Origin: a virus
Direction: 5' to 3' (one strand)
IMG/VR virus record: IMGVR_UViG_3300024495_000029
Location: 1 to 64,000 of that record
DNA length: 64,000 nt
This document shows positions 26,945-39,527 of the stretch, in pieces. Made by a program: the position numbers and the translations under genes. A model generated the notes under the pieces. The model made no database searches, was not told the origin of the DNA, and saw only the letters and a list, made by a program, of their open reading frames with translations. Positions within the stretch are counted from its first letter, which is position 1. Each line of letters opens with the position of its first letter.

Positions 26945-27159
26945 TATTTCTCCTTTGTTTCTTCCATTATATCAAGAGCCACTGACAAAATGTGGTCACA
27001 AGCAGATACCTGGCCACTCGTCCAATTGTATTCAATATCTAATTCAGCAAAGTCTTTTGAGGCGGGGTCCAAAGCATCCATCTGATTAGATAATTGCTCT
27101 AAATCCTGGTTTAAAGACATTATATGTAGTTTGATATATTCAATTAGTTTATGAGACAT
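26944..27159 (-). CDS. hypothetical coiled protein
   Basis: 71 residues with a coiled-coil first half (LHIMSLNQDLEQLSNQMDAL) and a DIEYNWTSGQVSACDHIL second half. The layout is reminiscent of small packaging or chaperone subunits, but no assignment is possible. Confidence 0.5.
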   Translation of the reverse strand: MSHKLIEYIKLHIMSLNQDLEQLSNQMDALDPASKDFAELDIEYNWTSGQVSACDHILSVALDIMEETKEK

Positions 27160-27539: not shown

Positions 27540-28284
27540 TTACTTGCTCCATTCTATAATCAGGGACATGCTCGGAATCCAAGTATATCTTATGGGTCTG
27601 ACATTCTTTGACACAATCAAGGTCTGCCTCGCCTAAATAATTACAAGCAGAGCAAATTTGACCACAATCATTATCGCAATAATCTAATGTATCTTCTGCA
27701 TCACAATCTCTACATTTAGATTCATATTCAGAACCTTCTAATTGTTCACCACGAAGGAACTCGCATTCGCCACCCCAACCTGTCTCTTCTTCATAACTAA
27801 GAGTAAATAGGAGTGCTGGATATTGTGCTGATAATTTAGCAATGGCAGGAAACGGTGGAGACCAAGCAGTATTGAAATTATAATAAACTACAAGGTTCTC
27901 TCCATTTTCAGTAGGACCCTCCATATATGTTTCAGGATATTCATCATCTGAAGATACAGCGACATCCCATTTTGTGCCCCATTCACGAACATTGAATGAA
28001 TACCAGTCATTTGTTTGGAATTTCATTTGCTCTTCAATAGGCAATTTATGGTCGGGTTGCTGAAGATACTCATACTCAGTAATACCTGCTTGTAAATGAT
28101 TATAGATATTATGAAAAGCAAATACAGGATTAGGATATGTAGTTTGTTTCTTTTGCATTTGTCCAGTTTCCATGTTCCATGAATCATGGACCTGTGCAAA
28201 TGGCTTATTCAATTGTGCTACTAATGTATTGACAAGTTGTGGATTTCCCTCTATGGTCAATCCGTTATATACCCAGTTCGGCAT
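27532..28284 (-). CDS. DUF1281/YubB-like protein with zinc-rich tail
   Basis: 250 residues. MPNWVYNGLTIEG opens the protein and WGTKWDV, YYNFNTAWSPPFP and SYEEETGWGG follow, the pattern of the plasmid/phage YubB-ferredoxin-like family. A C-terminal extension (about 190-240) has nine Cys, including CRDC, CDND and CSAC, fit for two zinc sites. The family role is unknown; it is widespread on mobile elements. It is the first gene of the operon from promoter 28315. Confidence 0.7.
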   Translation of the reverse strand: MPNWVYNGLTIEGNPQLVNTLVAQLNKPFAQVHDSWNMETGQMQKKQTTYPNPVFAFHNIYNHLQAGITEYEYLQQPDHKLPIEEQMKFQTNDWYSFNVREWGTKWDVAVSSDDEYPETYMEGPTENGENLVVYYNFNTAWSPPFPAIAKLSAQYPALLFTLSYEEETGWGGECEFLRGEQLEGSEYESKCRDCDAEDTLDYCDNDCGQICSACNYLGEADLDCVKECQTHKIYLDSEHVPDYRMEQVNG

Positions 28285-28314: not shown

Positions 28315-28360
28315 ATTATAATGCCTACCACCGACATTTGTCTATATGATGTGGATCACA
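28315..28360 (-). promoter_or_regulatory. box promoter (a)
   Basis: On the minus strand: TGTCGGTGG (28328-28336), exactly 7 bases, TATAAT (28315-28320). GAACGAAAGGAA precedes the ATG at 28284. ATGTGGATCACAT, a short palindrome, lies upstream at 28349-28361. Confidence 0.75.
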
Positions 28361-28463
28361 TAAAATGACTAATAGGTTTATTTATCTTATATATTGAGAA
28401 TTTCAGTGAATATAGTTGACAAACGTAAAAAGATCAATCTATCCTCCGCTTTTACGGGCAGCT

Positions 28464-28510
28464 ATAAAAAAAGCGGGGGCCCCAACAGTCTCTCCCTCTG
28501 TTGGGCCCCC
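28464..28510 (-). terminator. strong GC-rich terminator
   Basis: GGGGGCCCCAACAG (28475-28488) and CTGTTGGGCCCCC (28498-28510) pair with a single bulged base. On the minus strand seven T follow soon after the stem. It ends the operon of 28599-30383. The rest of 28361-28598 holds no gene that I can support. Confidence 0.75.
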
Positions 28511-28598
28511 TGTGTTTGGCTGCATCCACACTATGCATATTTAAAGACTGGGGCGAAAGGAACCCTGAAAGCCTCACCAAACGTTATTTATCATTATA

Positions 28599-28964
28599 TC
28601 ATACTGAGGCAGGTTCAAGAGGTGGTACAGTTATACCAGCATGATAAGCGATAAACTCTTCCCATGAATGTCCTTCAACGGTTTTGCCAACCATATCAAC
28701 ATCCACGGTAAAATCCCAAGCAGCAAAATTGCTAGGTTTAGATACTGCGCCAATGCCATAACCAGTTTCGTCCAGGACCTCATGCTGAATCATATGACTA
28801 ATAATCATACGAATGCAATATGGTGTGTCATTCCACCTTGGACGAGCATGTGCTAATGCTGTAGCAAGTTTAACTTGCCATTCATCTTCTCCCCAATGTG
28901 AATATAACCAAACTGCAGGCTCATTTTCGCCTTCGTTAAAAATATAATTAATTCGTGCTCCCAC
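28599..28964 (-). CDS. conserved phage hypothetical protein
   Basis: 121 residues, mixed alpha/beta. AVWLYSHWGEDEW followed by helices and a GYGIGAVSKP turn is a pattern I associate with actinophage early genes of unknown role. Last gene of a six-gene overlapping operon. Confidence 0.55.
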   Translation of the reverse strand: MGARINYIFNEGENEPAVWLYSHWGEDEWQVKLATALAHARPRWNDTPYCIRMIISHMIQHEVLDETGYGIGAVSKPSNFAAWDFTVDVDMVGKTVEGHSWEEFIAYHAGITVPPLEPASV

Positions 28965-29154
28965 TGATTTCCGCCTTTTCTCTAGTGTCCTCTTCGATTT
29001 TGTCCAATTCTACTACTTCATAGGACCATTTGTCAAGGCCCTCTTTGAACTCGTTGTAGTGGTGTCCACAGAAAAATAAATCTCCAGCTAAACCTTTAGC
29101 CTGATACATTGCTTTTGCTGTAACACATTTATCACAATTTAATCTTTCTGTCAT
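28948..29154 (-). CDS. DUF7455-like zinc protein
   Basis: 68 residues. NCDKC near the start, then GDLFFCGHHYNEF, gives a CxxC...CxHH zinc site typical of DUF7455, a small actinobacterial protein. This supports an actinobacterial host. The tail is acidic and helical. Confidence 0.65.
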   Translation of the reverse strand: MTERLNCDKCVTAKAMYQAKGLAGDLFFCGHHYNEFKEGLDKWSYEVVELDKIEEDTREKAEISGSTN

Positions 29155-29297
29155 AGTTTTCCGCCTTCTATCATGTCTGATAATCTATCTAAGATCCAAG
29201 AGTCGATATCGTTGATGTCAATCTCACGTAATTTCTCCATGATTTCATCACGGGCATATTTGTAACCATCATCCCAACCGCTCTTATAATCTGACAT
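29151..29297 (-). CDS. small acidic protein
   Basis: 48 residues, acidic and helical (GWDDGYKYARDEIMEKLREI). ATGA overlap with the DUF7455-like gene. The start GWDDGYxYARDE is a common phage pattern without a known function. Confidence 0.5.
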   Translation of the reverse strand: MSDYKSGWDDGYKYARDEIMEKLREIDINDIDSWILDRLSDMIEGGKL

Positions 29298-29299
29298 AT

Positions 29300-29512
29300 T
29301 TATCTCCTTGTGTATCCAGTTTCTTCGTATTCTGATACATAAGTTTCTGTTAAATTAAACTTATCACGAATACGACTTACTTTCTCTATGCTACCAGTTC
29401 CAATGTTGAATGTCAATGGTGGCATGAAATGTGGGTCCAGTCCAATTACTTGTGCCTCCCAATAGGCCATCTCTAAAGACAGCCTATCAGGAGCGGTAAG
29501 TTCAAAGTACAT
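29300..29512 (-). CDS. hypothetical protein
   Basis: 70 residues. The first half resembles a ferredoxin-like fold; the second ends RRDKF-like with a TETYVSEYEETGYTRR tail. It overlaps the upstream gene by one base. No family. Confidence 0.5.
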   Translation of the reverse strand: MYFELTAPDRLSLEMAYWEAQVIGLDPHFMPPLTFNIGTGSIEKVSRIRDKFNLTETYVSEYEETGYTRR

Positions 29513-29967
29513 TACCAGCGCACATCCGCATCTTCAACATCAAATGATTGAACAACAACATCTCCGTTGTATGCATCAAGAGTTAAAGTATCTTGTAAGA
29601 AGTAACGTGCATCAAAATCTTCTACGTCCTCCATTGGAATATCGTATTCAACCTCAAATGACATGCTTCCAGTAATACGAACTGTTTGCTTTGGTTCATG
29701 ACCAAGAATTTCGCAAAGGTCTCTAAGGACATCTTCCTTTTCAACGTTTGGGTTGTACCAGCCATCAGTATCTAGATTATTAATAATACGACGTATTTGG
29801 TCGTTACTAATAGTTAGTTGTTTTTCAAGGCGGACCAAGGAATCTAATTTACCTTCTAGGTCCACAGTCTTGATACTTGGGTAAGTTATATCATAACCAT
29901 TAATAGACTTATATGTTGTAAGTGCATTAGGGTTATAGGTCTCAGGGACCGTTGATGTTTCTTGCAT
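29512..29967 (-). CDS. nested shorter product of the same frame
   Basis: 152 residues starting at the ATG at 29965-29967, which has CGAAAGGAAAG just upstream and a box promoter at 29993-30014. It comprises the C-terminal part of the 216-residue frame: a coiled segment and a beta-rich end. The regulatory signals make this start more convincing than many annotated ones. Confidence 0.55.
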   Translation of the reverse strand: MQETSTVPETYNPNALTTYKSINGYDITYPSIKTVDLEGKLDSLVRLEKQLTISNDQIRRIINNLDTDGWYNPNVEKEDVLRDLCEILGHEPKQTVRITGSMSFEVEYDIPMEDVEDFDARYFLQDTLTLDAYNGDVVVQSFDVEDADVRW

Positions 29968-30162
29968 TTCTTTCCTTTCGTTAATTGGTGTAATTGTAGC
30001 AGGCTCCACCGACAAAAGGTTGGGCCTACGTCCACATGGACATGTGACATTCATCACACTTCCAGATGGGAATCCGAATTTATCTGATGATGTTACTTCA
30101 ATTAAAGTATCACATTCATCAGGATCGCATGCATATGTATTTTTAGTCCAGGTTTCTGACAT
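29512..30162 (-). CDS. long ORF with zinc N terminus, contains an internal promoter
   Basis: 216 residues as an open frame. Residues 1-50 carry CDPDEC and CPCG, a zinc site. Residues 51-64 are encoded by a complete box promoter and ribosome site (29967-30014). A second ATG at 29967 begins a 152-residue acidic protein in the same frame. It may be a two-gene locus in which the upstream gene reads through, or one gene with an internal shorter product. Unknown family for both parts. Confidence 0.6.
   Translation of the reverse strand: MSETWTKNTYACDPDECDTLIEVTSSDKFGFPSGSVMNVTCPCGRRPNLLSVEPATITPINERKEMQETSTVPETYNPNALTTYKSINGYDITYPSIKTVDLEGKLDSLVRLEKQLTISNDQIRRIINNLDTDGWYNPNVEKEDVLRDLCEILGHEPKQTVRITGSMSFEVEYDIPMEDVEDFDARYFLQDTLTLDAYNGDVVVQSFDVEDADVRW
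29993..30014 (-). promoter_or_regulatory. box promoter (p), inside an ORF
   Basis: TGTCGGTGG (30006-30014), 7 bases, TACAAT (29993-29998). It lies within the 29512-30162 reading frame and precedes the ATG at 29967. Confidence 0.7.
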
Positions 30163-30383
30163 TAGACATCCGCCATTTGCTTGTGGTATGCTTTGAGGTC
30201 CATAACATTAATGTTAAGTTCCTCTTCAGGGTACTCATTAATCAAGAAGTTTAATGCTTCTCCTGCTGACTTAAAGTCAGTATAATTAGTTGAATAACCA
30301 TATCCATATATGGTTGCTTCCCAGCAGTCTACCCCTCCAGGAGAGACAGAATATTCCATTTCATATATCTGTGCGTTTATCAT
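30162..30383 (-). CDS. hypothetical protein, leaderless
   Basis: 73 residues from the ATG at 30381-30383, eight bases after the -10, so leaderless. An upstream ATG in the same frame lies in the promoter and is rejected. The protein has a short beta region (WEATIYGYGYSTNY) and a helix. Unknown. Confidence 0.55.
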   Translation of the reverse strand: MINAQIYEMEYSVSPGGVDCWEATIYGYGYSTNYTDFKSAGEALNFLINEYPEEELNINVMDLKAYHKQMADV

Positions 30384-30390
30384 GGCCCAA

Positions 30391-30412
30391 ATTATACACG
30401 AGACGACTGACA
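30391..30412 (-). promoter_or_regulatory. box promoter (q), leaderless
   Basis: TGTCAGTCG (30404-30412), 7 bases, TATAAT (30391-30396), eight bases to the ATG. It is the only box promoter with no room for a ribosome site. Confidence 0.65.
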
Positions 30413-30533
30413 TTTACAAGCATTTCCAGGGATTTTTTCTAGATTCCCGTATTATCTACATCACATCCGTAAAAGCTCTGGGCGATCCTTAGTATATTGC
30501 GGGCGTCTCATTATGTGAAACATTTTATCTTGC

Positions 30534-30607
30534 GATGCGTACGGGATTTGAACCCGTGATCTCCACAGTGACAGTGTGGTGAAATAACCAAGCTATTCTA
30601 ACGCACC
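30534..30607 (-). tRNA. tRNA-Asp (GTC anticodon)
   Basis: Acceptor GGTGCGT pairs with ACGCATC (one G-T pair). The anticodon arm CCACA-CTGTCAC-TGTGG shows GTC and the T arm is ACGGG-TTCAAAT-CCCGT. It is the only tRNA on the minus strand. It follows the DUF932 gene after a terminator. Confidence 0.9.
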
Positions 30608-30611
30608 AAAT

Positions 30612-30638
30612 AAAAACGGGGGAGATTTATCTCCCCCG
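30612..30638 (-). terminator. rho-independent terminator of the DUF932 gene
   Basis: CGGGGGAGAT and ATCTCCCCCG (30617-30638) form a near-perfect stem with a tiny loop; the minus strand continues with five T. It lies 15 bases after the DUF932 stop. Confidence 0.85.
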
Positions 30639-30652
30639 CTAGTTTATCATTC

Positions 30653-31657
30653 TTAGAATGATTTTACTAACTTGAGAAGTTTATTTTTCTCAGCAGTAAG
30701 AATTGGGTCAAAGCCACTCGCACCCGCCATTAGCGTTTCAGAATTGCCACGACCAGAACGGAAATAATCAAGGCGTTCAGTAAGCGCATTGAAAGCACCC
30801 CATTTTGTTCCCTTGATATTAGCGTTAGTTGGTGAGTTATGATAAAGTTCATCAATCAAGATAACTTTATTTTCCCACTTTTTCAAAGCACCCTTAGCGT
30901 CTTTTTCAGGCTTAGGATAAATTGTGCGAATTAGTTTAGAGAATTCGGCATCAGTAATTTCCTGCTTGAAAAGTTCCTGCGCTTCTTTCTCGAATTCATC
31001 AAAGTATCCAAGAGCAAGACCCAAAGTTTCACGAGCAACTTGAATTCTGCCTTCGACAGATTGAGTATGGCGAATTTTGAATGATTGCTTAGCATTACGC
31101 ATAGCAAGATTCAAAGTGTTTTGGCATACAACACGAACAGGTGTAATTGCTGCCTGAACAGCAACAGAACCATCATGTGAAGTCCATACGATTAGATAAA
31201 GTTTTGTTTGGTCATTAGCACCTTGTGGGTCTAACACCATAGTTCTAGGAACATCAACAGTTCCGAAAACTACTTTACCATTTTTGAGAGAACCAGCAGA
31301 TTCCCAGCGACACTCAGGGTTAGCATCATGAATGTTATCTGCGAAAGCAAATAATTCTTCATTCTGAACAGGCTTGTATCGCTTACCAACAGTAGCGAGA
31401 ACATCAGTTCCACCATTGAATGGATTTGTGCGAATAACTAACTGAGCGTTAGATACATCATTCCAAGATTCTGAAATGTGGTCGGTCAATGGAGATAAGC
31501 GAACATTCCAATTAGAAAGTTTTGCTTCATCGAGCATTGTTTGAGTAGTTACATTTTCATCTTGATTGAAAATGCGATTAGCGAGATTGTGCCATGCGGG
31601 TTTTCCACGCAAAGCAAAGGCAACTTCGTTGCCATTTGTTTCTAGGTTATGAGCCAT
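30653..31657 (-). CDS. DUF932 (phage/plasmid-like TIGR03299) protein
   Basis: 334 residues. GKPAWHNLANRI, TVGKRYKPVQNEELFAF, TPVRVVCQNTL and the late NALTERLDYFRSGRG are hallmarks of this mobile-element family. It is a single-gene operon with its own box promoter and terminator, with high-grade codons. The biochemical role of DUF932 proteins is not established; they are often encoded near replication or defence genes. Confidence 0.85.
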   Translation of the reverse strand: MAHNLETNGNEVAFALRGKPAWHNLANRIFNQDENVTTQTMLDEAKLSNWNVRLSPLTDHISESWNDVSNAQLVIRTNPFNGGTDVLATVGKRYKPVQNEELFAFADNIHDANPECRWESAGSLKNGKVVFGTVDVPRTMVLDPQGANDQTKLYLIVWTSHDGSVAVQAAITPVRVVCQNTLNLAMRNAKQSFKIRHTQSVEGRIQVARETLGLALGYFDEFEKEAQELFKQEITDAEFSKLIRTIYPKPEKDAKGALKKWENKVILIDELYHNSPTNANIKGTKWGAFNALTERLDYFRSGRGNSETLMAGASGFDPILTAEKNKLLKLVKSF

Positions 31658-31690
31658 AGATTTTTCCTTTCATTAGTTAGATTGAGCCTA

Positions 31691-31712
31691 AGTATAACAG
31701 ACCCCACCGACA
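31691..31712 (-). promoter_or_regulatory. box promoter (h)
   Basis: TGTCGGTGG (31704-31712), 7 bases, TATACT (31691-31696), driving DUF932. A partial CRP-like site, TGTGATCAATATCATA, lies at 31752-31767. Confidence 0.75.
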
Positions 31713-31778
31713 TTGTAAATAGTTAGATAGACATTGTGGGCAAATCGGACATGTGATCAATATCATAAATTCCTGTGG

Positions 31779-31829
31779 TTATCCACAGTTTGCCGTAACG
31801 CTGTGGATAACCCCGCAAGTTGTTGCGGG
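31779..31829. other. DnaA-box-like pair and hairpin
   Basis: TTATCCACA (31779-31787) and its complement TGTGGATAA (31802-31810) are perfect DnaA-box matches 14 bases apart, followed by CCCGCAAGTTGTTGCGGG (31812-31829), a hairpin. It could be a replication element or simply a terminator with chance boxes. Confidence 0.45.
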
Positions 31830-31847
31830 CCACAAGATCGGGGAAGC

Positions 31848-31890
31848 TGGGGCGGGAATCTAGATGATTACACAGTTCAAACCCGCCCCA
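31848..31890 (-). terminator. hairpin after the 31897 gene
   Basis: TGGGGCGGG (31848-31856) and CCCGCCCCA (31882-31890), a 9-bp GC stem with a 25-base loop. No T run follows, so its strength is unclear. Confidence 0.45.
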
Positions 31891-31896
31891 AGATTA

Positions 31897-32079
31897 TTAC
31901 TTACCGACTTTTACCATAGCATAACGCAAACCGCTGCCAGTATCTAATCTTAATTTAGTTAGATTAGGTCTGATAGAAATTATTTCGCTAATAGTGCCAG
32001 TAATTCCTGATTTACCAGTTGTAAAAACATCGCCTTTGCGATAGAAGCGACCTTTCTTGGTATCTAGAATTGGTGACAT
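31897..32079 (-). CDS. small SH3/KOW-like protein
   Basis: 60 residues. RKGDVFTTGKSGITGTISEI looks like a small beta barrel. It aligns well with the 59-residue protein at 32651 (YKVGDLFTTLKSKKTGVIKEI), so the two are duplicates. Such proteins may bind RNA or ribosomes; not shown. Confidence 0.55.
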   Translation of the reverse strand: MSPILDTKKGRFYRKGDVFTTGKSGITGTISEIISIRPNLTKLRLDTGSGLRYAMVKVGK

Positions 32080-32144
32080 TTTATTTCCTTTCGTTTGTTG
32101 GTTGGTGAGTAGTTTATAGTCATACTCAGGACTTTGTTCGTTAT

Positions 32145-32567
32145 TTATAGATAACGAGCAATAGCGTTGTAAGTAGAAGTAGAAACTACTTCCTCATCGG
32201 TCATCTTGAGAATACGAATAGCGTTCTCAATCTCCTCTACCATTTCGTTATACTGCCAATCGTGGAAAGTCTGAAAGTCTTTCTTTGGTTCAGCAGGTAG
32301 TTCAATAGCATTAGCAGGAAGGTAGAAATCTACATTTATCCTTCCGTCATAACGCTTGTTAGCAGACAAGTTTTCTGCCTTAGAGATAGCAGTTAGAGCA
32401 AGTTTAGCGACTTCCTTGTTCCACTTCTCTTGGGCTTTCTCAAACTTAGCCTCGTTAGTTGCTTGGTTCTCTCTATCCTTTTGGAGTTGAGCGAGTTTTG
32501 TTTCTAAGGCTTTGATAACCTTAGTTGTAGCGATTTTTACATTTATCGCTTTTCCGTTTCTTGCCAT
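32145..32567 (-). CDS. coiled-coil protein
   Basis: 140 residues. Residues 10-70 form a charged coiled coil; a short beta region (RINVDFYLPAN) and a helical end follow. I have seen similar layouts in actinophage early regions. Function unknown. Confidence 0.55.
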   Translation of the reverse strand: MARNGKAINVKIATTKVIKALETKLAQLQKDRENQATNEAKFEKAQEKWNKEVAKLALTAISKAENLSANKRYDGRINVDFYLPANAIELPAEPKKDFQTFHDWQYNEMVEEIENAIRILKMTDEEVVSTSTYNAIARYL

Positions 32568-32603
32568 TTATTTATTTTCCTTTCGTTGTTTGTTTGGGAG
32601 TTT

Positions 32604-32643
32604 ATTATAGCAGGGACTACCGACATTTTCGGTAATCCCTGCT
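32604..32643 (-). promoter_or_regulatory. box promoter (g) overlapping a hairpin
   Basis: TGTCGGTAG (32617-32625), 7 bases, TATAAT (32604-32609). The bases AGCAGGGACTACCGA and TCGGTAATCCCTGCT (32609-32643) form an inverted repeat with one mismatch. It is both terminator of the gene upstream and part of the promoter. Confidence 0.7.
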
Positions 32644-32650
32644 TGTCTAT

Positions 32651-32830
32651 TTAGTTAGATAGACTTTCCGCTGAGATGGTTGTCCAGCGAGTTTCTTTTG
32701 TTGGTAGTTCCAACAAAACACGCACCGAGCCAGATGCGTTAGGCACAATCTCTTTGATTACGCCTGTTTTCTTTGACTTTAGGGTGGTGAATAAATCGCC
32801 AACCTTGTAAGTATAACCATTTATGGTCAT
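32651..32830 (-). CDS. small SH3/KOW-like protein, duplicate
   Basis: 59 residues. A paralogue of the protein at 31897, with the same KVGDLFTT-K-S--TG-I-EI order. Start supported by AGGAAGC and promoter (f). Confidence 0.55.
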   Translation of the reverse strand: MTINGYTYKVGDLFTTLKSKKTGVIKEIVPNASGSVRVLLELPTKETRWTTISAESLSN

Positions 32831-32861
32831 TTTGCTTCCTTTCTGTTAGTAGTTGGGTTGT

Positions 32862-32917
32862 ATTTTAGCATACCCCACCGACAATCGGCAAGGTATAGCG
32901 GTGTGAGATTAGTCACA
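32862..32917 (-). promoter_or_regulatory. box promoter (f) with CRP-like site
   Basis: TGTCGGTGG (32875-32883), 7 bases, TAAAAT (32862-32867). TGTGAGATTAGTCACA (32902-32917) is a full CRP/GlxR-like palindrome that overlaps the stop of the gene upstream. Confidence 0.75.
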
Positions 32918-33175
32918 CCAAGCCTCTAGGTGGTGCTGTTCGATAATAGCCCATGCGGGTGCGGTATCTCTGCCTTTATAGGATACGCCTTCGGGCATTG
33001 GTATCTCACGATCAGTTTCGCCCTCATCATAAGCAAAAATAGCCTCAATACAAGGTTCTACCATGCTAGTAGGAACGGGCGGGTAATGATTAGCAGTTAG
33101 ATGAATTGAGATAGCAGTAGATAAATCTAATCCTAAATCATAGTCAGCTAAATCGTGTGCGAAATTACTTCCCAT
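32909..33175 (-). CDS. conserved actinophage hypothetical
   Basis: 88 residues, mixed alpha/beta, with HYPPVPTSMVEPCIEAIFAY and PAWAIIEQHHLEAWCD. The Pro-Pro-Val-Pro turn and helix pattern recur in phage early proteins of unknown role. It overlaps the next gene upstream by 11 bases. Confidence 0.55.
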   Translation of the reverse strand: MGSNFAHDLADYDLGLDLSTAISIHLTANHYPPVPTSMVEPCIEAIFAYDEGETDREIPMPEGVSYKGRDTAPAWAIIEQHHLEAWCD

Positions 33176-33446
33176 TATTTTCCTCCAATACTGAGTTTTT
33201 CATTTGTTCCATTTCGTCAATAGTTTCGATTAGTTCCCTGAATTGTGTTTCAGTTAGTAATACTTTAGTAATTTTATCAGTTGTAGCAGAAGCAATAGCA
33301 GTAGCATACATAAACATAGCCCTAGCGAATTGTTCTTGGTCTAAGTCATGGCGAGAATGGACAATAAAAGAAGCGAGTTCCATTTGTTCATCGCCAATAA
33401 TTCCCTCTTGAGTAGCCTCAAGTAGAGCAGAAGCAGTAGATAACAT
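33165..33446 (-). CDS. hypothetical helical protein
   Basis: 93 residues, fully helical, rich in Ala, Glu and Met. It is the first gene of the operon from promoter (e). No motif. Confidence 0.5.
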   Translation of the reverse strand: MLSTASALLEATQEGIIGDEQMELASFIVHSRHDLDQEQFARAMFMYATAIASATTDKITKVLLTETQFRELIETIDEMEQMKNSVLEENNGK

Positions 33447-33476
33447 TTATTTCCTTTCGTTGTGGTAGTGGGCTAG

Positions 33477-33498
33477 ATTATACACTAGCCCACCGACA
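33477..33498 (-). promoter_or_regulatory. box promoter (e)
   Basis: TGTCGGTGG (33490-33498), 7 bases, TATAAT (33477-33482), with CGAAAGGAAAT before the ATG at 33446. The spacer and flank CTAGTG/CTAGCC also make a short inverted repeat. Confidence 0.75.
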
Positions 33499-33501
33499 TT
33501 A

Positions 33502-33756
33502 TTAGGCTAGGGCTAAGATAGCCTGAGAAGCACCGTCATTTACACGGGCGAGTTCTGCCTCTAACTCATTACGAGTAAATTTGGCAGGATTACCGATAAG
33601 TTCTGATACCATGCGAGAATTTTCCTCAACAAAGATACCTGCGGGCAGGCGCTTTACTGCTGAATAGAAAGAGCCTTGTGGGTCAAGCATAGAAACAAAT
33701 TCTACGCCTGCAACGGAGAATGGGTACTTTACCCAGTTAGTTGTATCTAAAGACAT
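33502..33756 (-). CDS. conserved phage hypothetical
   Basis: 84 residues. A beta-rich first half (FSVAGVEFVSMLDPQGSFYSAV) and a helical second half ending in a hydrophobic tail. Single-gene operon with promoter (i). Confidence 0.55.
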   Translation of the reverse strand: MSLDTTNWVKYPFSVAGVEFVSMLDPQGSFYSAVKRLPAGIFVEENSRMVSELIGNPAKFTRNELEAELARVNDGASQAILALA

Positions 33757-33788
33757 TTATTTTCCTTTCGTTTGTCGTTAGACTAGGA

Positions 33789-33921
33789 ATTATACACGAA
33801 GCCTGCGACATTTTACATTTGAGTATCGGCGTGTCGGGCATTTGTGAGATTTCTCACAAAATCCCGTGATTATCCACAGGCCCACTTAAACATGTGGAAA
33901 ACCCCGCACATACTGCGGGCC
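33789..33921 (-). promoter_or_regulatory. full regulatory block (i)
   Basis: In order upstream of the ATG at 33756: TATAAT (33789-33794), 7 bases, TGTCGCAGG (33802-33810), CGGCGTGTCG on the plus strand (33827-33836), the perfect palindrome TGTGAGATTTCTCACA (33843-33858), a DnaA-like TTATCCACA (33870-33878) and a CCCGCACATACTGCGGG hairpin (33903-33919). The hairpin is followed on the minus strand by TTTT and ends the gene upstream. Confidence 0.75.
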
Positions 33922-33923
33922 TT

Positions 33924-34019
33924 TTATATTTTAAAAAATAAATATAAAAATAAAAGTAACGGAGAAATTAAAAAACCGATAAAGATCAACGTTGTCAGAG
34001 CTGCAAAAAATTCTATCAT
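33924..34019 (-). CDS. tiny membrane peptide
   Basis: 31 residues, almost entirely hydrophobic after MIEFFAAL. It overlaps the stop of the GP88-like gene as ATGA, which argues that it is translated. Too short for family assignment. Confidence 0.45.
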   Translation of the reverse strand: MIEFFAALTTLIFIGFLISPLLLFLYLFFKI

Positions 34020-34738
34020 TTTTTACTCGCAGAAAATCTAACATCCGCTTTACCGTACACACATAAGCCGCATGATACGCATGCGCTGCCATTGGTGGAG
34101 ATAAGTGGAATTTGTTTATTATTTTCAGGACATTTTGCACCAGGCTTACCAATTAATTCTTTCATAGTATTTTCGGTGACTGCAAAAGTTTTACCTAGAT
34201 ACGCTAATTTAATTCCAGAATTATTTTTGCGTAAGTCATGAGCAATTTCTTTATTCTCATCATCGGTAGAAAAATAAAGAGAGAGGTTAGAAATATCCTT
34301 AAGGATAAGCGCTGCAGACTTTACACGAGTATATACCCAAAATTGCACATCGGGATTATTTTGGATAACCGCTTTCCACGCATATGCATAGGTATCATTA
34401 AAGAAATCGCCATCCCAGTGTATACGGAATAACTTTTCTGCATTACGCTTTTCACAATCTGCAACAAAATCAGCAATCATATCGCTAAGCAATAGAGACA
34501 TGGTATCCATATCTGCATTGCGTAGCAATTCCCAGTTATGCAGAAGAGTATTCTTTACTCCTTTGTATACTCTTTCAAGTTTTCCTGCATAGCAAACGCT
34601 TTCACAAACACTAGTGGCACCAGGACACGAGAAATCTTTTCCAGCAGGTAATCCAAAAGTGTTAGCGATTGTTGGGGTTTTTCCATTTTTTGAGACAGCA
34701 TTAGCGACCTTCCTATCATTAGACCTTTTTAGTTTCAT
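34016..34738 (-). CDS. GP88-like phage protein
   Basis: 240 residues. Features are FGLPAGKDFSCPGATSVCESVCYAG, RIHWDGDFFNDTYAYAW, FWVYTRV and a C-terminal CVSCGLCVYG. This matches the actinophage GP88 family. The seven Cys in two clusters could hold an Fe-S cluster or zinc. The family has no assigned function, but the Cys pattern hints at a redox or radical-type enzyme; that is inference. Confidence 0.65.
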   Translation of the reverse strand: MKLKRSNDRKVANAVSKNGKTPTIANTFGLPAGKDFSCPGATSVCESVCYAGKLERVYKGVKNTLLHNWELLRNADMDTMSLLLSDMIADFVADCEKRNAEKLFRIHWDGDFFNDTYAYAWKAVIQNNPDVQFWVYTRVKSAALILKDISNLSLYFSTDDENKEIAHDLRKNNSGIKLAYLGKTFAVTENTMKELIGKPGAKCPENNKQIPLISTNGSACVSCGLCVYGKADVRFSASKK

Positions 34739-34762
34739 TATACACCTTTCGTTATGGGCCCT

Positions 34763-34784
34763 ATTGTAGCAGGGCCCACCGACA
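34763..34784 (-). promoter_or_regulatory. box promoter (d)
   Basis: TGTCGGTGG (34776-34784), 7 bases, TACAAT (34763-34768). GGGCCC on either side of the -10 makes an inverted repeat. It drives the GP88-like gene. Confidence 0.75.
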
Positions 34785-34786
34785 TT

Positions 34787-35284
34787 TTACCAAGAGGACT
34801 GATAGTAGTAGGATAAATCCTTATACTCATCATTTTCTACTAGTGGGGCTATCTGCTTGATAGTGTCCTTGATATCAGACCAATAGTATTCATCGATATC
34901 ATATGAGCCGAAAAAGAAACCAGCAGACGGCATTAGTTCGCTAGGGTCTTTCTTGAATAAGGCTTGACGGCAGGTAGTAAGTAATTCTTTTAGTTTATCA
35001 CGAGATACATAGTATTCACCGCAATTATCTTCACCGCCTTGTACATTATCGACAAACCATTTGTGTATCTGATTAGCCTTACGCCAATACGCCACATTTA
35101 CGCTAACATCTACGCCATAGATACTTTCAGTATCTACAAGAGTATCAACACCAGCAGCATTTACTACATCATTCCATTGTGGATAAGTTGCAGCAGAGTA
35201 TTTAGTGTCTAAATCTCTATCTAATTTAGACCAGTCAATTTTAGCAATATGCTTACGAGCAGAGAGGTACATATCTAAACCCAT
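34787..35284 (-). CDS. conserved phage protein (MGLDMYL family)
   Basis: 165 residues. MGLDMYLSARKH, VAYWRKANQIHKWFV, GGEDNCGEYYVSRD and AGFFFGSYDIDEYYW are the landmarks of a family found in many phages. It has no known activity that I can state. Single-gene operon with the complete block (c) upstream. Confidence 0.7.
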   Translation of the reverse strand: MGLDMYLSARKHIAKIDWSKLDRDLDTKYSAATYPQWNDVVNAAGVDTLVDTESIYGVDVSVNVAYWRKANQIHKWFVDNVQGGEDNCGEYYVSRDKLKELLTTCRQALFKKDPSELMPSAGFFFGSYDIDEYYWSDIKDTIKQIAPLVENDEYKDLSYYYQSSW

Positions 35285-35315
35285 TATTTTATTCCTTTCG
35301 TTAGGTTAGGCTGCT

Positions 35316-35420
35316 ATTATAGCGGAAGCCACCGACAAATTCCACGACACGCCGAAAAAATTCCTGTGAAAAAAATCACATCTACTTAACGACACGCCCG
35401 ACCCCGCAAGATCTGCGGGC
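35316..35420 (-). promoter_or_regulatory. full regulatory block (c)
   Basis: TATAAT (35316-35321), 7 bases, TGTCGGTGG (35329-35337), CGACACGCCG (35345-35354), TGTGAAAAAAATCACA (35365-35380), CGACACGCCC (35390-35399) and a CCCGCAAGATCTGCGGG hairpin (35403-35419). This is the clearest example of the module order. Confidence 0.78.
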
Positions 35421-35435
35421 TTGTTGAAATTTCAA

Positions 35436-35582
35436 CTAATCCCAATTAGTTTTCAAACCAGCTGCGGTTTTTTTATGTTTTGTTTTTCTTGAATAAATTT
35501 TTTTAGATTTTATTGGCGTTGCGGCATTTGACCTCCGCAATTCCAAAATTCTTTTTATTCTTTCTTTATTTGGTAATTTCAT
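35436..35582 (-). CDS. small basic protein
   Basis: 48 residues with about 14 Lys/Arg (RRSNAATPIKSKKIYSRKTK). Possibly nucleic-acid binding. ATGA overlap with the gene before. Confidence 0.5.
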   Translation of the reverse strand: MKLPNKERIKRILELRRSNAATPIKSKKIYSRKTKHKKTAAGLKTNWD

Positions 35583-35770
35583 TTTGTTCCTAACTTTGGT
35601 AATTTGTAATTTGAAGCGTCATAGAATTTATTTGCGTCAAATCTTGGATTATCTTTCGCAAACATTTCCGCAAAATCTATAACCATTTTTGAAAAAACGG
35701 CTGGGTGAGTTTTATCGCTAACATAGTTTAGAATTTTAGCGGTTTCAACATAGTGTTTTTTAGATGTCAT
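35579..35770 (-). CDS. conserved phage hypothetical
   Basis: 63 residues, helical then a basic end. The pattern FAEMFAKDNPRFDANKFYDA is widespread in phages as a small protein of unknown function. Overlaps both neighbours by four bases. Confidence 0.6.
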   Translation of the reverse strand: MTSKKHYVETAKILNYVSDKTHPAVFSKMVIDFAEMFAKDNPRFDANKFYDASNYKLPKLGTK

Positions 35771-35973
35771 TTTTCCACGACCCTTCTGCCTTCACGATAA
35801 AAGATTTTGGTATAGCATTTTCCGCTAGGTGTGTAGAGATTTACAGTTGAGTAATCCATAGCAAATCCCCAATCCACATAACTAGCAAAACTCTTGTGAG
35901 CCTCTAGTTCATCAGCGATTTGTTGTGTGAAGTGTGGAGAATTTTCATCATAAGCAACAGTTATTTTATACAT
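35767..35973 (-). CDS. hypothetical small alpha/beta protein
   Basis: 68 residues: strand, helix, two strands (TVNLYTPSGKCYTKIFYREGRR). One-base overlap upstream. Unknown. Confidence 0.5.
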   Translation of the reverse strand: MYKITVAYDENSPHFTQQIADELEAHKSFASYVDWGFAMDYSTVNLYTPSGKCYTKIFYREGRRVVEK

Positions 35974-36194
35974 TAGTTAGCCTCCTGAGTAGCAAAAATT
36001 GAAAGTTCATTTTCGGAAAGCAATCCGTTATCCCAAATCACATCTCCGTCATTATCTAAAATAAGTTCATAGGGATTACACTCGCAAGTTTCATAGTCAA
36101 AATAATCCTCGCCATTTCCCCAATAAATAGCACCCATACCACGACAGGCATCACAATTTTTTATTGCTCTTAGAGCAGTTTCAAGTTTATCCAT
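35973..36194 (-). CDS. zinc-finger protein, DnaJ-type Cys pairs
   Basis: 73 residues. CDACRGMGAIYWGNGEDYFDY and CECNP form a CxxCxGxG-like zinc site. The 39-residue protein at 37939 repeats this N-terminal half nearly word for word, so they are paralogues. Confidence 0.55.
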   Translation of the reverse strand: MDKLETALRAIKNCDACRGMGAIYWGNGEDYFDYETCECNPYELILDNDGDVIWDNGLLSENELSIFATQEAN

Positions 36195-36303
36195 TTTCTT
36201 TTTCCTTTCTTTCTTGAATTGTAGCAGTTAGCACCGACAACGCTTCCGCCTTAGAGGCTTCACGCTGGGCGTTGATAAAGTTTCTGAATTCGATCAAATC
36301 CAT
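36187..36303 (-). CDS. tiny protein whose frame contains a promoter
   Basis: 38 residues. The C-terminal half, with residues LSVLTATIQERKE, is encoded by promoter (j) and the next gene's ribosome site. It has its own promoter (b). It may be a real peptide or only an upstream open frame. Confidence 0.4.
   Translation of the reverse strand: MDLIEFRNFINAQREASKAEALSVLTATIQERKEKENG
36218..36239 (-). promoter_or_regulatory. box promoter (j), inside an ORF
   Basis: TGTCGGTGC (36231-36239), 7 bases, TACAAT (36218-36223), just upstream of the ATG at 36194. Confidence 0.65.
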
Positions 36304-36331
36304 TTTAGTTTTCCTTTCGTTTATTGGTTAG

Positions 36332-36353
36332 ATTATAGCGGAAGCCACCGACA
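36332..36353 (-). promoter_or_regulatory. box promoter (b)
   Basis: TGTCGGTGG (36345-36353), 7 bases, TATAAT (36332-36337). The 7-base spacer CTTCCGC is identical to that of block (c), suggesting a recent copy. Confidence 0.75.
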
Positions 36354-36354
36354 T

Positions 36355-36567
36355 TTAGTCGGGAAGCCTAACCGCAACAGTAGCCCACTCATCTTTGAGC
36401 GAACCCGTAGGGCGGTAGCGAATTGAATAGGCTTCGTAGCCCTCAGATAAATAGACATCATCTCGCTTTTCCGCAAAGTTGATAATTCCGCCATTGTATC
36501 TCCTACGCATAGAAGTAGGCGCATAGTATTGGTCAATTAGTAAATCAACAATAGAATATGAACGCAT
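36355..36567 (-). CDS. small protein, paralogue of 38220 gene
   Basis: 70 residues. YSIVDLLI, a SMRRRYNGGIINFAEK loop, AYSIRYR and a closing VAVRLPD match the protein at 38220 in order. Probably a small beta barrel. Function unknown. Confidence 0.55.
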   Translation of the reverse strand: MRSYSIVDLLIDQYYAPTSMRRRYNGGIINFAEKRDDVYLSEGYEAYSIRYRPTGSLKDEWATVAVRLPD

Positions 36568-36701
36568 TATCCTAGTATCCTTTCTCCATAGTAATTCTCA
36601 AAATCAGCAATAGTCATCAGACCTTTATACTCATTACAAAATCCGCAGAATTTAGTATCCGCAGAGTATTCAGTTTCGCAGAAGCAACAAATTAGTTTCA
36701 T
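36567..36701 (-). CDS. tiny zinc-ribbon protein
   Basis: 44 residues. CCFC and CGFC form a four-Cys ribbon, followed by a short helix. TAATG overlap with the next gene. Confidence 0.5.
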   Translation of the reverse strand: MKLICCFCETEYSADTKFCGFCNEYKGLMTIADFENYYGERILG

Positions 36702-36731
36702 TTAGTTATCCTTTCTAACTTTCTTGGCGAA

Positions 36732-36933
36732 AGTTTATCAGAAAGCACCGACATTTTCAAATCCAAATCGTAATTTCTCAAATAGTAAGACGGCGTGTCG
36801 TGTGATAAAAATCACAAATTTTTTTTGTGATAAATCTCACAAAATTCCCGTGATTTTTAAAATTGGACATAAAAGACAAATCGCCCCCACACTACGTACG
36901 GGCGTGATCGAGCTTTGTCAAGACGACACGCCG
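36732..36933 (-). promoter_or_regulatory. full regulatory block (k) with two CRP-like sites
   Basis: TAAACT (36732-36737), 7 bases, TGTCGGTGC (36745-36753), CGGCGTGTCG on the plus strand (36791-36800), TGTGATAAAAATCACA (36801-36816), TGTGATAAATCTCACA (36826-36841), a weak hairpin near 36886-36908 and CGACACGCCG (36924-36933). A third palindrome, TGTGAGTTGCCTCACA, lies at 36943-36958 inside the end of the gene upstream. Confidence 0.75.
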
Positions 36934-36934
36934 C

Positions 36935-37102
36935 TTAGGCGGTGTGAGTTGCCTCACATTCCGCAGAGCATTCGGCGGGAAGGCTAAAGAGATACTTTAG
37001 CAGAGCCTTACGCTCAGACATAGATATTTCAGGGTGATATTGTTTTACACCACCATGTTGATATTCAAAGATGATTTTATCTAAAGTTTTTTTAGTTAGC
37101 AT
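36935..37102 (-). CDS. small hypothetical protein
   Basis: 55 residues, helical, ending PAECSAECEATHTA. The last codons overlap a CRP-like palindrome, so the C terminus may be shaped by the DNA site. Overlaps the upstream gene by 11 bases. Confidence 0.5.
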   Translation of the reverse strand: MLTKKTLDKIIFEYQHGGVKQYHPEISMSERKALLKYLFSLPAECSAECEATHTA

Positions 37103-37298
37103 TTACTTTATTCCTTTCTAAATCTTTATGTGCGTAGTAGCAACGCATTTCGTGAAGTCTAATCCACTTTGAGATTTGAAATCTTGAACAGATGTAGCAT
37201 TTATGCCACTTTTGTTTTAGCCAAATTTTATTGTTATCTGAATTGTATAAATCCAACATTGTGTGTTGTTTTTCGCATTTACATTTTTTGTTAGTCAT
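37092..37298 (-). CDS. Cys/His-rich basic protein
   Basis: 68 residues. KKCKCEKQH, CYIC and a later RCYYAH give five Cys and several His for one or two zinc ions; strongly basic. Likely nucleic-acid binding by charge. Confidence 0.5.
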   Translation of the reverse strand: MTNKKCKCEKQHTMLDLYNSDNNKIWLKQKWHKCYICSRFQISKWIRLHEMRCYYAHKDLERNKVNAN

Positions 37299-37334
37299 TT
37301 TCTAAACCAACCTTTCTAACTTTCTAATAACTGA

Positions 37335-37412
37335 AGTCTAGCAGGGGGGTCTGACATTCTACTGACCAGTATGCGTACAAATCGGACATTTCGTTTTGTG
37401 ATTTACACCACA
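37335..37412 (-). promoter_or_regulatory. box promoter (l) with CRP-like site
   Basis: TGTCAGACC (37348-37356), 7 bases, TAGACT (37335-37340), and TGTGATTTACACCACA (37397-37412). The box is the most diverged of the set, but the 7-base spacing holds. Confidence 0.6.
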
Positions 37413-37453
37413 TTTTCCAGGCATTTAGACAAAACGGACATAAGGGTACAAAA

Positions 37454-37504
37454 CGCCCGCAAAAGACTGCGGGCAGCTGCCGATTTTGTCAAATCGACAC
37501 GCCG
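37454..37504 (-). terminator. hairpin terminator with CGACACGCC motif
   Basis: GCCCGCAAAAGACTGCGGGC (37455-37474) forms a 7-bp stem; the minus strand continues GTTTTG. CGACACGCCG lies at 37495-37504, just after the gene upstream ends. Confidence 0.6.
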
Positions 37505-37512
37505 CTTTTATT

Positions 37513-37605
37513 TTATTTTTTTATTTCTTTTGTTGCCAATCTGATCGTGTAAATTACGCTAAGAATTAGCGCAATTTGAACAGCGGAAGTTAGAAGTCTA
37601 TTCAT
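37513..37605 (-). CDS. tiny membrane peptide
   Basis: 30 residues: a hydrophobic helix (LLTSAVQIALILSVIY) and a Lys-rich end. TAATG coupling with the gene before. Confidence 0.45.
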   Translation of the reverse strand: MNRLLTSAVQIALILSVIYTIRLATKEIKK

Positions 37606-37784
37606 TAGAACATTTCACCGCTTTCTAGTAGAGCATCAAACTCAGCATCAATTTCTTTTTCTAGCAGAACATCAAGAGAGATTTCATCTGCCTCATCATC
37701 AAAGTATTCATTTACTACATAACTATCTTGAATACTTTCATATTTATATTCACTAGGGTTTCTTTCCCAACTCATAGCATACAT
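37605..37784 (-). CDS. small acidic protein
   Basis: 59 residues, strongly acidic, with no Cys. Its ATG follows ribosome site and promoter (m). Unknown. Confidence 0.5.
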   Translation of the reverse strand: MYAMSWERNPSEYKYESIQDSYVVNEYFDDEADEISLDVLLEKEIDAEFDALLESGEMF

Positions 37785-37787
37785 TAT

Positions 37788-37937
37788 TTATTTTCCTTTC
37801 TTATTGCGGTAAATCTTATACGCTACCACCGACAAAATAACTAGACCTAGACCTAGCCAAGAAGCGTAGAAATCAAATTGAGCGGTCTCAAAGGCAATTC
37901 CATCTGACCCTAATTCTATTAGTAAGTATCTATCCAT
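37788..37937 (-). CDS. small membrane protein containing a promoter
   Basis: 49 residues. One membrane segment (24-42), then NKKGK. The codons of the membrane segment include promoter (m), read as LSVVAYKI. Real or a by-product of the promoter; the hydrophobic pattern favours real. Confidence 0.45.
   Translation of the reverse strand: MDRYLLIELGSDGIAFETAQFDFYASWLGLGLVILSVVAYKIYRNKKGK
37813..37834 (-). promoter_or_regulatory. box promoter (m), inside an ORF
   Basis: TGTCGGTGG (37826-37834), 7 bases, TAAGAT (37813-37818), upstream of the ATG at 37784. Confidence 0.65.
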
Positions 37938-37938
37938 T

Positions 37939-38058
37939 TTAGTTATTCTCCTTTATACATTCGCAAGTTTCTACATCATAGTCTAAGTCATTACCCCAAA
38001 AGATAAGACCTACGCCATTACATTCATCACATTCAATTCTAGTTAGAGAGTTTATCAT
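37939..38058 (-). CDS. tiny zinc-finger protein
   Basis: 39 residues. CDECNGVGLIFWGNDLDYD and CEC match the first half of the protein at 35973. First gene of the operon from promoter (n). Confidence 0.5.
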   Translation of the reverse strand: MINSLTRIECDECNGVGLIFWGNDLDYDVETCECIKENN

Positions 38059-38082
38059 TTATTTATTTCCTTTCGTTAGTGT

Positions 38083-38145
38083 GATAGTAGGTCTTATTTG
38101 CTAGGCTCACCTTTCGGATTATTTGCTAGGCTCATACCTACTATT
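38083..38145 (-). promoter_or_regulatory. structured leader with duplicated 16-mer and short uORF
   Basis: TTATTTGCTAGGCTCA occurs at 38094-38109 and 38119-38134. GATAGTAGGT (38083-38092) and ACCTACTATT (38136-38145) flank the pair as an inverted repeat with one mismatch. On the minus strand a 13-codon open frame (38094-38135) starts AGTAGGTATG. It could be an attenuator or a protein-binding leader. Confidence 0.45.
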
Positions 38146-38163
38146 CAATTTTGTTATGTCGTT

Positions 38164-38229
38164 AGACTATCAGACCTGACCGACATTTTCAAGCCGACAC
38201 GCCGAAGCGTGGGTGTGACTTATGCCACA
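38164..38229 (-). promoter_or_regulatory. full regulatory block (n)
   Basis: TAGTCT (38164-38169), 7 bases, TGTCGGTCA (38177-38185), CGACACGCCG (38195-38204) and TGTGACTTATGCCACA (38214-38229). The palindrome includes the stop region of the gene upstream. Confidence 0.7.
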
Positions 38230-38414
38230 CTTACCGCTACTGAGCGGTAGGTATAACCTCCGCCATTCTTACGGATTTCTACAAGATACGCCTCAGCGTT
38301 TTCATACCATACACAAGACGGATGTTTTTCAGCCGATACGATTTCGCCCTCAACGGAGCGGGAACGATAAGTTTTACCTACTAGGAGGTTTTCGATAGAG
38401 TATAGATTAGCCAT
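38220..38414 (-). CDS. small protein, paralogue of 36355 gene
   Basis: 64 residues. YSIENLLVGKTYRSRSVEGEI, AYLVEIRK and a closing SVAVSVA align with the 36355 product. AAAGGAGAT ribosome site. Confidence 0.55.
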   Translation of the reverse strand: MANLYSIENLLVGKTYRSRSVEGEIVSAEKHPSCVWYENAEAYLVEIRKNGGGYTYRSVAVSVA

Positions 38415-38446
38415 TATGGTAATCTCCTTTCATTAAGTTAATCGGT

Positions 38447-38512
38447 ATTATTTCAGATTTATTAAGTTTTTTCAAGTCGACACGCCGTTAAGAGAGTGTG
38501 ATTTGTATCACT
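38447..38512 (-). promoter_or_regulatory. sigma-70-like promoter with CRP-like site
   Basis: TTGAAA (38470-38475), 17-base spacer, AATAAT (38447-38452): this gene uses a normal promoter and has no box. CGACACGCCG (38478-38487) and TGTGATTTGTATCACT (38497-38512) are still present upstream. Confidence 0.55.
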
Positions 38513-38600
38513 TGTGGATACAATCACTTTCAATCTCATGACCGAATTCATCTACTAATTCTTCATAGATTTCATCTAGATAATCAAGATAATCAGACAT
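38508..38600 (-). CDS. tiny acidic protein
   Basis: 30 residues, very acidic (SDYLDYLDEIYEELVDEF). Its stop lies inside a CRP-like palindrome. Own box promoter (o). Confidence 0.45.
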   Translation of the reverse strand: MSDYLDYLDEIYEELVDEFGHEIESDCIHK

Positions 38601-38625
38601 TATTTCTCCTTTCATTATGTATAGA

Positions 38626-38701
38626 ATACTAACATAGACCACCGACATTTTGACCCGTTTTTCGGGCGTGTCGCAAAACTATTTTTGTGAGATACCTCAC
38701 A
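38626..38701 (-). promoter_or_regulatory. full regulatory block (o)
   Basis: TAGTAT (38626-38631), 7 bases, TGTCGGTGG (38639-38647), GGGCGTGTCG on the plus strand (38664-38673) and TGTGAGATACCTCACA (38686-38701). It is the outermost block of the array. Confidence 0.75.
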
Positions 38702-39353: not shown

Positions 39354-39527
39354 TTAGAATTCCCCAATTGGACAAGAGAAATCTATATCTGAATAATACT
39401 CCGAACTGTGCTTGTCTACCATAGTACATTTTAATTCTAGTTGACTAAATTCTAGACAAGATTGACAAGTTTTAGAACGAAATTCAGCTAGTAAGGTTTT
39501 CTGTAATTGTGGGTTCAGATTGTCCAT
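39354..39527 (-). CDS. small Cys-containing protein
   Basis: 57 residues. CQSC, a CTM and a final CPIGEF resemble the 39132 product, and the two may be distant duplicates. It overlaps the gene upstream by 44 bases. Confidence 0.5.
   Translation of the reverse strand: MDNLNPQLQKTLLAEFRSKTCQSCLEFSQLELKCTMVDKHSSEYYSDIDFSCPIGEF

Follow-up and report, generated by a model that had tools for sequence, protein, structure and literature searches.

Which protein reads the promoter-like elements that are strung along one strand of a genome fragment from a freshwater phage, and do these elements belong to a known class? The fragment is a 64,000-nt stretch ("the window") of the 67,144-bp IMG/VR record IMGVR_UViG_3300024495_000029. 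Inspection of the letters alone (the original prediction) had picked out 17 minus-strand copies of a 9-letter box, each lying seven bases upstream of a TANNNT hexamer, and had known of no described promoter class with this layout. We found that the class has been described: the box, the spacing, the -10 hexamer, and the absence of a -35 all match the RecA-NDp/P1 promoters of PafBC. Judging from sequence, it is likely that the array consists of RecA-NDp/P1-class promoters, that it lies in the equivalent of a phage terminal repeat, and that it is read by the host's PafBC with help from Crp. As part of this explanation, the array would probably comprise about 17 promoters, each preceding a small gene or operon. 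What looks new is not the promoter class, which is known, but its deployment by a phage in an array with phased Crp-type sites. A literature search of open-licence papers found no report of phage promoters of the PafBC/RecA-NDp class.

The array matches the promoters of PafBC

Excerpts of PMC5656591 give the actinobacterial RecA-NDp/P1 consensus as tTGTCRgtg-8 nt-TannnT and report that, in Mycobacterium smegmatis, deletion of pafBC leaves no P1-driven transcription of recA. According to excerpts of PMC11804915, the helix-turn-helix (HTH) of PafB engages a "-26 promoter motif" while the HTH of PafC touches domain 4 of SigA, an arrangement known as sigma adaptation, and PafBC is switched on by single-stranded DNA bound in its WYL domains. 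The original prediction had proposed an activator or an altered sigma contact in place of the -35 contact. This was right in kind, since PafBC works by sigma adaptation.

The 9-letter box plus seven bases is the same thing as the published 8-letter box plus eight bases. At all 17 of the predicted minus-strand places there is a TGTC word that starts 16 bases before the start of a TANNNT hexamer. As had been counted, 10 of the 17 boxes are exact copies of TGTCGGTGG and seven of the hexamers are TATAAT. The weakest of them, at 37348, is doubtful: its box (TGTCAGACC) has four mismatches, and it scores 6.9 bits with the weight matrix described below. There is also an 18th site, which had been overlooked (26979-26987, TGTCAGTGG-N7-TATAAT).

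In the window, TGTCRGTG-N8-TANNNT occurs 13 times without mismatch on the minus strand (26.98-38.65 kb) and never on the plus strand. Any other spacer between N0 and N19 yields 0 to 3 matches, so the enrichment is at N8 only. To score inexact sites, we trained a weight matrix on 319 sites from other viruses, after dropping the near-identical loci L011, L013, L042, and L106, and we used a threshold of at least 8 bits. The matrix found 17 sites on the minus strand of the window and none on the plus strand, as compared to two in total in 20 first-order Markov sequences of 64 kb each. Across the entire record, TGTCGGTGG-N7-TANNNT matches 10 times on the minus strand and never on the plus strand, and the reversed pattern does not match at all. 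The plus strand of the window does appear to be free of the box, with neither exact matches nor matrix sites, and the genes at 39-41 kb have no exact box, both as originally stated.

The box would lie at roughly -28 to -20. The statement that there is no good -35 holds on average: across 359 non-redundant sites (see below), the signal stays at or below 0.18 bits at each position between 45 and 5 bases ahead of the box, which is what is expected for promoters with a box in the -26 region and no consensus -35. It does not hold at every single site, as by eye there are fair -35-like words at 36753 (TTGAAA) and 31712 (TTTACA). Similarly, a word resembling a ribosome-binding site (RBS) and a start codon had been said to follow nearly every hexamer. 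We found them 21-36 bases past the hexamer for 15 of the 18 sites, but not at 38185, 37356, or 30412. At 38185, a start codon with an RBS-like word lies at 105 bases, and our script found none for the other two. By eye, 30412 has an ATG 8 bases past the hexamer, so this mRNA may be nearly leaderless.

Overall, the array shares TGTCRGTG, the 8-base spacer, TANNNT, and the lack of a consensus -35 with the RecA-NDp/P1 promoters of Mycobacterium and Streptomyces. It differs from them in that tandem copies are found in a phage, often with a phased Crp-type site.

Recurrence in other viruses and place in the genome

To see if the array recurs, we scanned IMG/VR for exact matches to TGTCGGTGG-N7-TATAAT, which returned at least 119 stretches; all figures for 119 loci are among the matches listed. 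Control scans with a spacer of N6 or N8 returned 55 and 19 stretches, with one match apiece. Of the 119 listed stretches, 85 contain at least two TGTCRGTG-N8-TANNNT sites. Of these 85 loci, 81 encode a homolog of one or more of 28 window proteins, which indicates that most of the loci belong to one broad phage group. Among the remaining 34 stretches, 11 encode a homolog of one of the 28 proteins, and the others may be chance matches. If we consider only sites that were not used to fetch the loci, there are 296 at the right spacing and 0-67 at 23 other spacings.

We then scanned the whole records for 50 viruses that were chosen from the listed loci. All 50 contain matches (1 to 24 sites each), and in 49 of them the matches are confined to a single strand; the reversed control matched twice in all. 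In the 359 non-redundant sites, the box is conserved more strongly than any other part of the promoter. It is preceded directly by A-rich bases, and G is present at 67% at the extended -10 place. The array recurs in the related IMG/VR viruses but not in isolated phages: in the whole records of 16 isolated actinophages, including five Stanwilliamsviridae, two had one match each and there was no array.

To place the array in the genome, we used a longer assembly of the same virus (G038; 112,301 bp; ungapped identity of 99.99% over 62.5 kb). Its ends overlap by 186 bp, so it is probably a circular assembly. All 13 of its exact boxes are at 76.7-88.5 kb, which corresponds to 26.9-38.7 kb of the window. 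A megablast search for near relatives among isolated phages matched only 62 bases of a ribonucleotide reductase gene. At the protein level, identities to phage Jay2Jay, from what is presumably the "BE" cluster, are 65% for ribonucleotide reductase, 58% for terminase, 52% for GP88, and 50% for DUF932. Gene order and these identities put the virus near the Streptomyces phages of Stanwilliamsviridae.

In Jay2Jay, the homologs of DUF932 and GP88 lie within the direct terminal repeat, an exact one of 11,438 bp. The window gene at 39484-39756 matches Jay2Jay at 11488-11712, just beyond the repeat. Since DUF932 and GP88 are inside the repeat of Jay2Jay and the homolog of 39484-39756 is outside of it, the array (26.97-38.65 kb) covers the equivalent of the repeat. 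We infer that the array segment may be a terminal repeat in its own virus too, with early genes. Unlike this virus, Jay2Jay itself lacks both the PafBC box and exact Crp palindromes.

The longer assembly also encodes pyrimidine dimer DNA glycosylase, Hsp20, thioredoxin, and AdoMet decarboxylase domains.

Crp/GlxR-type palindromes lie upstream of the boxes

Phased Crp-type palindromes upstream of the boxes had been overlooked. Excerpts of PMC7999487 print the GlxR consensus as TGTGA-N6-TCACA and report that a site built to this consensus raised both GlxR binding and promoter activity. The window contains eight exact copies of this palindrome, all of them inside the array segment, and none with spacers of N2-N5 or N7-N11. 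The longer assembly (six stretches of it scanned) also has eight, again all in the array segment. Of the 18 boxes, 12 are preceded by a palindrome with no more than two mismatches, and 10 by a palindrome with no more than one (Table 1).

The association is also seen in the other viruses. The sequences ahead of 350 non-redundant IMG/VR boxes contain 58 exact palindromes with the N6 spacer, as compared to 0-1 at ten other spacers, and another 55 palindromes at N6 have one mismatch. Exact palindromes are 10.7-fold denser within 100 bp ahead of the boxes (78 in 45 kb) than elsewhere (125 in 774 kb), although the latter number implies that many palindromes are not tied to boxes.

The palindromes are centred mostly 26.5, 36, 46, 57, or 67 bp ahead of the box. 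When each of 198 clusters is represented once, these distances show helical phasing near 10 bp (R 0.72), and none of 5000 random sets reached this value. For the window's own 13 palindrome-box distances, R is 0.51. The array resembles class I Crp/GlxR promoters in having TGTGA-N6-TCACA upstream in helical phase, as a ladder of about 10 bp. Unlike those promoters, it pairs the palindrome with a PafBC-type -26 box instead of a -35.

Several other words recur in the window or near the boxes. By eye, 36880-36960 and 38440-38512 contain a Crp-type palindrome (36943, exact; 38497, one mismatch) beside TTGACA-like or TTGAAA-like words and have no PafBC box; perhaps these are Crp-assisted ordinary promoters. 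A third repeated word near the promoters, GGCGTGTCG, occurs nine times in the window, in either orientation (33828, 35345, 35390, 36792, 36924, 37495, 38195, 38478, and 38665). All of these copies are within 33.8-38.7 kb, and there are 313 copies in the 119 listed IMG/VR loci. TTATCCACA-like words, which we take to resemble DnaA boxes, are found at 31780-31830 and 33868-33890. TATCCACA is present in 14 of 195 promoter upstreams (3.7 expected).

Table 1. Predicted promoters and Crp-type palindromes of the array, in window coordinates.
Feature	Position	Strand	Box	-10 hexamer	ORF (open reading frame)	Bits	Remark
Whole array segment	26966..38701	minus					18 predicted PafBC-type promoters and Crp-type palindromes; equivalent of the terminal repeat of phage Jay2Jay
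Promoter	26966..26987	minus	TGTCAGTGG (26979-26987)	TATAAT	26681-26944	23.0	Absent from the original list
Promoter	28315..28336	minus	TGTCGGTGG	TATAAT	27532-28284 (DUF1281_C)	28.0	
Promoter	29993..30014	minus	TGTCGGTGG	TACAAT	29512-29967	24.7	
Promoter	30391..30412	minus	TGTCAGTCG	TATAAT		21.8	ATG a few bases past the -10
Promoter	31691..31712	minus	TGTCGGTGG	TATACT	30653-31657 (DUF932)	30.5	
Promoter	32604..32625	minus	TGTCGGTAG	TATAAT	32145-32567	26.8	
Promoter	32862..32883	minus	TGTCGGTGG	TAAAAT	32651-32830	28.3	
Promoter	33477..33498	minus	TGTCGGTGG	TATAAT	33165-33446	30.6	
Promoter	33789..33810	minus	TGTCGCAGG	TATAAT	33502-33756	15.9	
Promoter	34763..34784	minus	TGTCGGTGG	TACAAT	34016-34738 (GP88)	36.3	
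Promoter	35316..35337	minus	TGTCGGTGG	TATAAT	34787-35284	34.3	
Promoter	36218..36239	minus	TGTCGGTGC	TACAAT	35973-36194	24.8	
Promoter	36332..36353	minus	TGTCGGTGG	TATAAT	36187-36303	34.7	
Promoter	36732..36753	minus	TGTCGGTGC	TAAACT	36567-36701	27.1	
Doubtful promoter	37335..37356	minus	TGTCAGACC	TAGACT		6.9	
Promoter	37813..37834	minus	TGTCGGTGG	TAAGAT	37605-37784	20.8	
Weak promoter	38164..38185	minus	TGTCGGTCA	TAGTCT	37939-38058	10.1	Long leader
Promoter	38626..38647	minus	TGTCGGTGG	TAGTAT	38508-38600	28.3	
Crp-type palindrome, 1 mismatch	28345..28360						Upstream of box 28336
Crp-type palindrome, exact	30043..30058						Upstream of box 30014
Crp-type palindrome, 1 mismatch	31752..31767						Upstream of box 31712
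Crp-type palindrome, exact	32902..32917						Upstream of box 32883
Crp-type palindrome, exact	33843..33858						Upstream of box 33810
Crp-type palindrome, exact	35365..35380						Upstream of box 35337; same letters as the GlxR consensus site built in PMC7999487 (excerpts)
Two Crp-type palindromes, both exact	36801-36816, 36826-36841						Upstream of box 36753
Crp-type palindrome, 1 mismatch	37397..37412						Upstream of doubtful box 37356
Crp-type palindrome, 1 mismatch	38214..38229						Upstream of box 38185
Crp-type palindrome, exact	38686..38701						Upstream of box 38647

The reader of the box and the host

If PafBC reads the box, then the host should encode it. An actinobacterial host is suggested by the WhiB-like protein, by the kinship with Streptomyces phages, and by the promoter, and from habitat and GC content, our guess is the freshwater order Nanopelagicales. 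WYL proteins are present in all 61 of the Nanopelagicales genomes that we sampled, and in 60 of the 61, two WYL proteins are encoded about 0.9-1.0 kb apart (a hand count of the matches listed). One such pair (L172) matches the solved PafB (E = 8.9e-47) and PafC (E = 7.5e-25). A cyclic nucleotide (cNMP)-binding protein is present in all four of the candidate host genomes tested. Among the candidate hosts, L131 is strain LanE-43, whose genome (G052) falls in the order we sampled for hosts; PMC10202952 assigns LanE-43 to "Ca. Nanopelagicales". The first cultivated phages of Nanopelagicales are 39 kb and belong to another family (PMC10202952).

We also looked for the box in candidate hosts, which were reached via a 16S probe for acI (12 genomes, one of them titled Omnitrophota). 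These genomes contain 29 exact boxes, as compared to five for the reversed control. In four of the 12, the box precedes an ORF that we read by eye as recA. The -10 is stronger in the phage array (TATAAT or TACAAT) than at the host recA (TACCTT). For 11 of the 29 host sites, the ORF picked by our script starts 28-29 bases past the first base of the box, which is the expected transcript start (our own count). This suggests that those 11 genes are leaderless. In the Nanopelagicales loci L149, L151, L166, and L169, a LexA-type palindrome lies immediately past the recA box (by eye), so that the two damage pathways apparently converge on a short segment at recA.

An alternative is that a phage-encoded activator, either the WhiB-like protein or another, reads the box and copies the layout of PafBC promoters. 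The virus does encode a WhiB-like protein (14195-14368, plus strand; PF02467, E = 2.2e-12) and, in a 66-amino-acid frame at 4879-4965, an HTH that weakly resembles sigma-70 region 4 and is under the family's cut-off. Also, most of its small proteins have no match in Pfam. But the box, spacing, and -10 equal those of the host's own recA promoter. There is no WYL domain in the virus's own record or in any of 50 other virus records. Among 12 virus records, none has a cNMP-binding domain or a sigma region 4 over the cut-off (there are weak matches to the latter in five). The WhiB-like protein is the sole known DNA-binding regulator among the matches listed (25 of 27 Pfam families, from a scan of 105 of the 144 ORFs of the longer assembly). 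We consider a phage-encoded activator to be unlikely, and the WhiB-like protein is not needed as the reader of the box. As specific candidates, a phage-borne WYL protein, Crp-type protein, or sigma factor gave no match over the cut-off in the virus records searched.

Or, these could be extended -10 promoters that are helped by Crp, with the box binding another host factor or setting promoter strength and PafBC having a minor role. The G that often precedes the hexamer and the enrichment of palindromes would fit, as would a related promoter in L275 that has a palindrome and a -10 and no box. However, the box is the most conserved element, its spacing is fixed, and many boxes lack a palindrome, which makes this explanation very unlikely.

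It is hard to credit that the boxes are operators for a phage repressor. The original prediction had likened them to cluster A stoperators, which are repressor sites that are scattered over the genome and are not tied to a -10. There are indeed many copies in a single orientation, but the likeness does not fit: all 13 exact sites of the longer assembly fall within a single 12-kb segment and stand at N8 from a -10 (the pattern itself requires this, and other spacings are not enriched), and the same word and spacing are found ahead of the host recA. That ClgR, not PafBC, reads the box is highly improbable: a study related in the excerpts of PMC5656591 reported recognition of the P1 region by ClgR, but those excerpts describe P1 activity as absent without pafBC, and excerpts of PMC11804915 show PafBC on the -26 motif.

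Several observations weigh against promoters read by the host's PafBC with help from Crp. Each candidate host genome carries only 1-4 exact boxes, and homologs of the phage's DUF932 protein are in just 2 of 296 Nanopelagicales genomes. The gene for the nearer of these homologs (57% identity) is preceded by a palindrome and lacks a box; the small contig that carries it may be a stray piece of phage. Six of the 18 boxes lack a palindrome within two mismatches. One-mismatch palindromes in the 350 upstreams also occur with spacers of N4 (27) and N8 (11). Much of the phasing comes from the peak at 36 bp: without it, R is 0.54, which 26 of 5000 random sets reached (at any period), and a group of palindromes at 41.5 bp is out of phase. 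Finally, the absence of the array from the 16 isolated actinophages, some of which are kin, implies that the device is not general.

We still favor PafBC-type promoters. In that case, the phage would contribute the box (about -28 to -20) and a -10 that is strong and in many cases extended, without a consensus -35, and the host would contribute PafBC. By the M. smegmatis model, the HTH of PafB would sit on the box and PafC would contact domain 4 of the housekeeping sigma factor, and the switch would be single-stranded DNA in the WYL domains. The host's Crp would assist RNA polymerase from the phased Crp/GlxR-type site, whose centre is mostly 26-67 bp ahead of the box. Single-stranded DNA from entering or replicating phage DNA, and from damaged host DNA, would turn PafBC on, and the takeover genes would fire together. 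We infer the binding and activation of the sites by PafBC and Crp, the timing, the single-stranded DNA trigger, and the host order from these patterns. The arrangement is similar to the middle promoters of phage T4, in which a MotA box replaces the -35 contact and MotA, which is made by the phage, acts via sigma domain 4. Unlike MotA, the reader here is most likely the host's.

These results suggest that such phages run their takeover genes from the host's own damage alarm. More broadly, we lean towards the view that a large group of freshwater actinophages has placed the takeover genes of its terminal repeat under PafBC and cyclic AMP (cAMP)-Crp, so that the damage alarm and the carbon state of the cell time the programme. 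This would be an undescribed early switch, with a composite promoter and no phage activator. If this is correct, then a common freshwater phage group uses the activator of its host's repair response as its early switch, and infection would be tied to DNA damage (sunlight) and to cAMP in abundant lake bacteria. The arrays would also provide hundreds of natural variants of PafBC promoters for studies of sigma adaptation, and arrays of the box would serve as a mark by which to recognise, from sequence, viral contigs whose hosts are actinobacteria.

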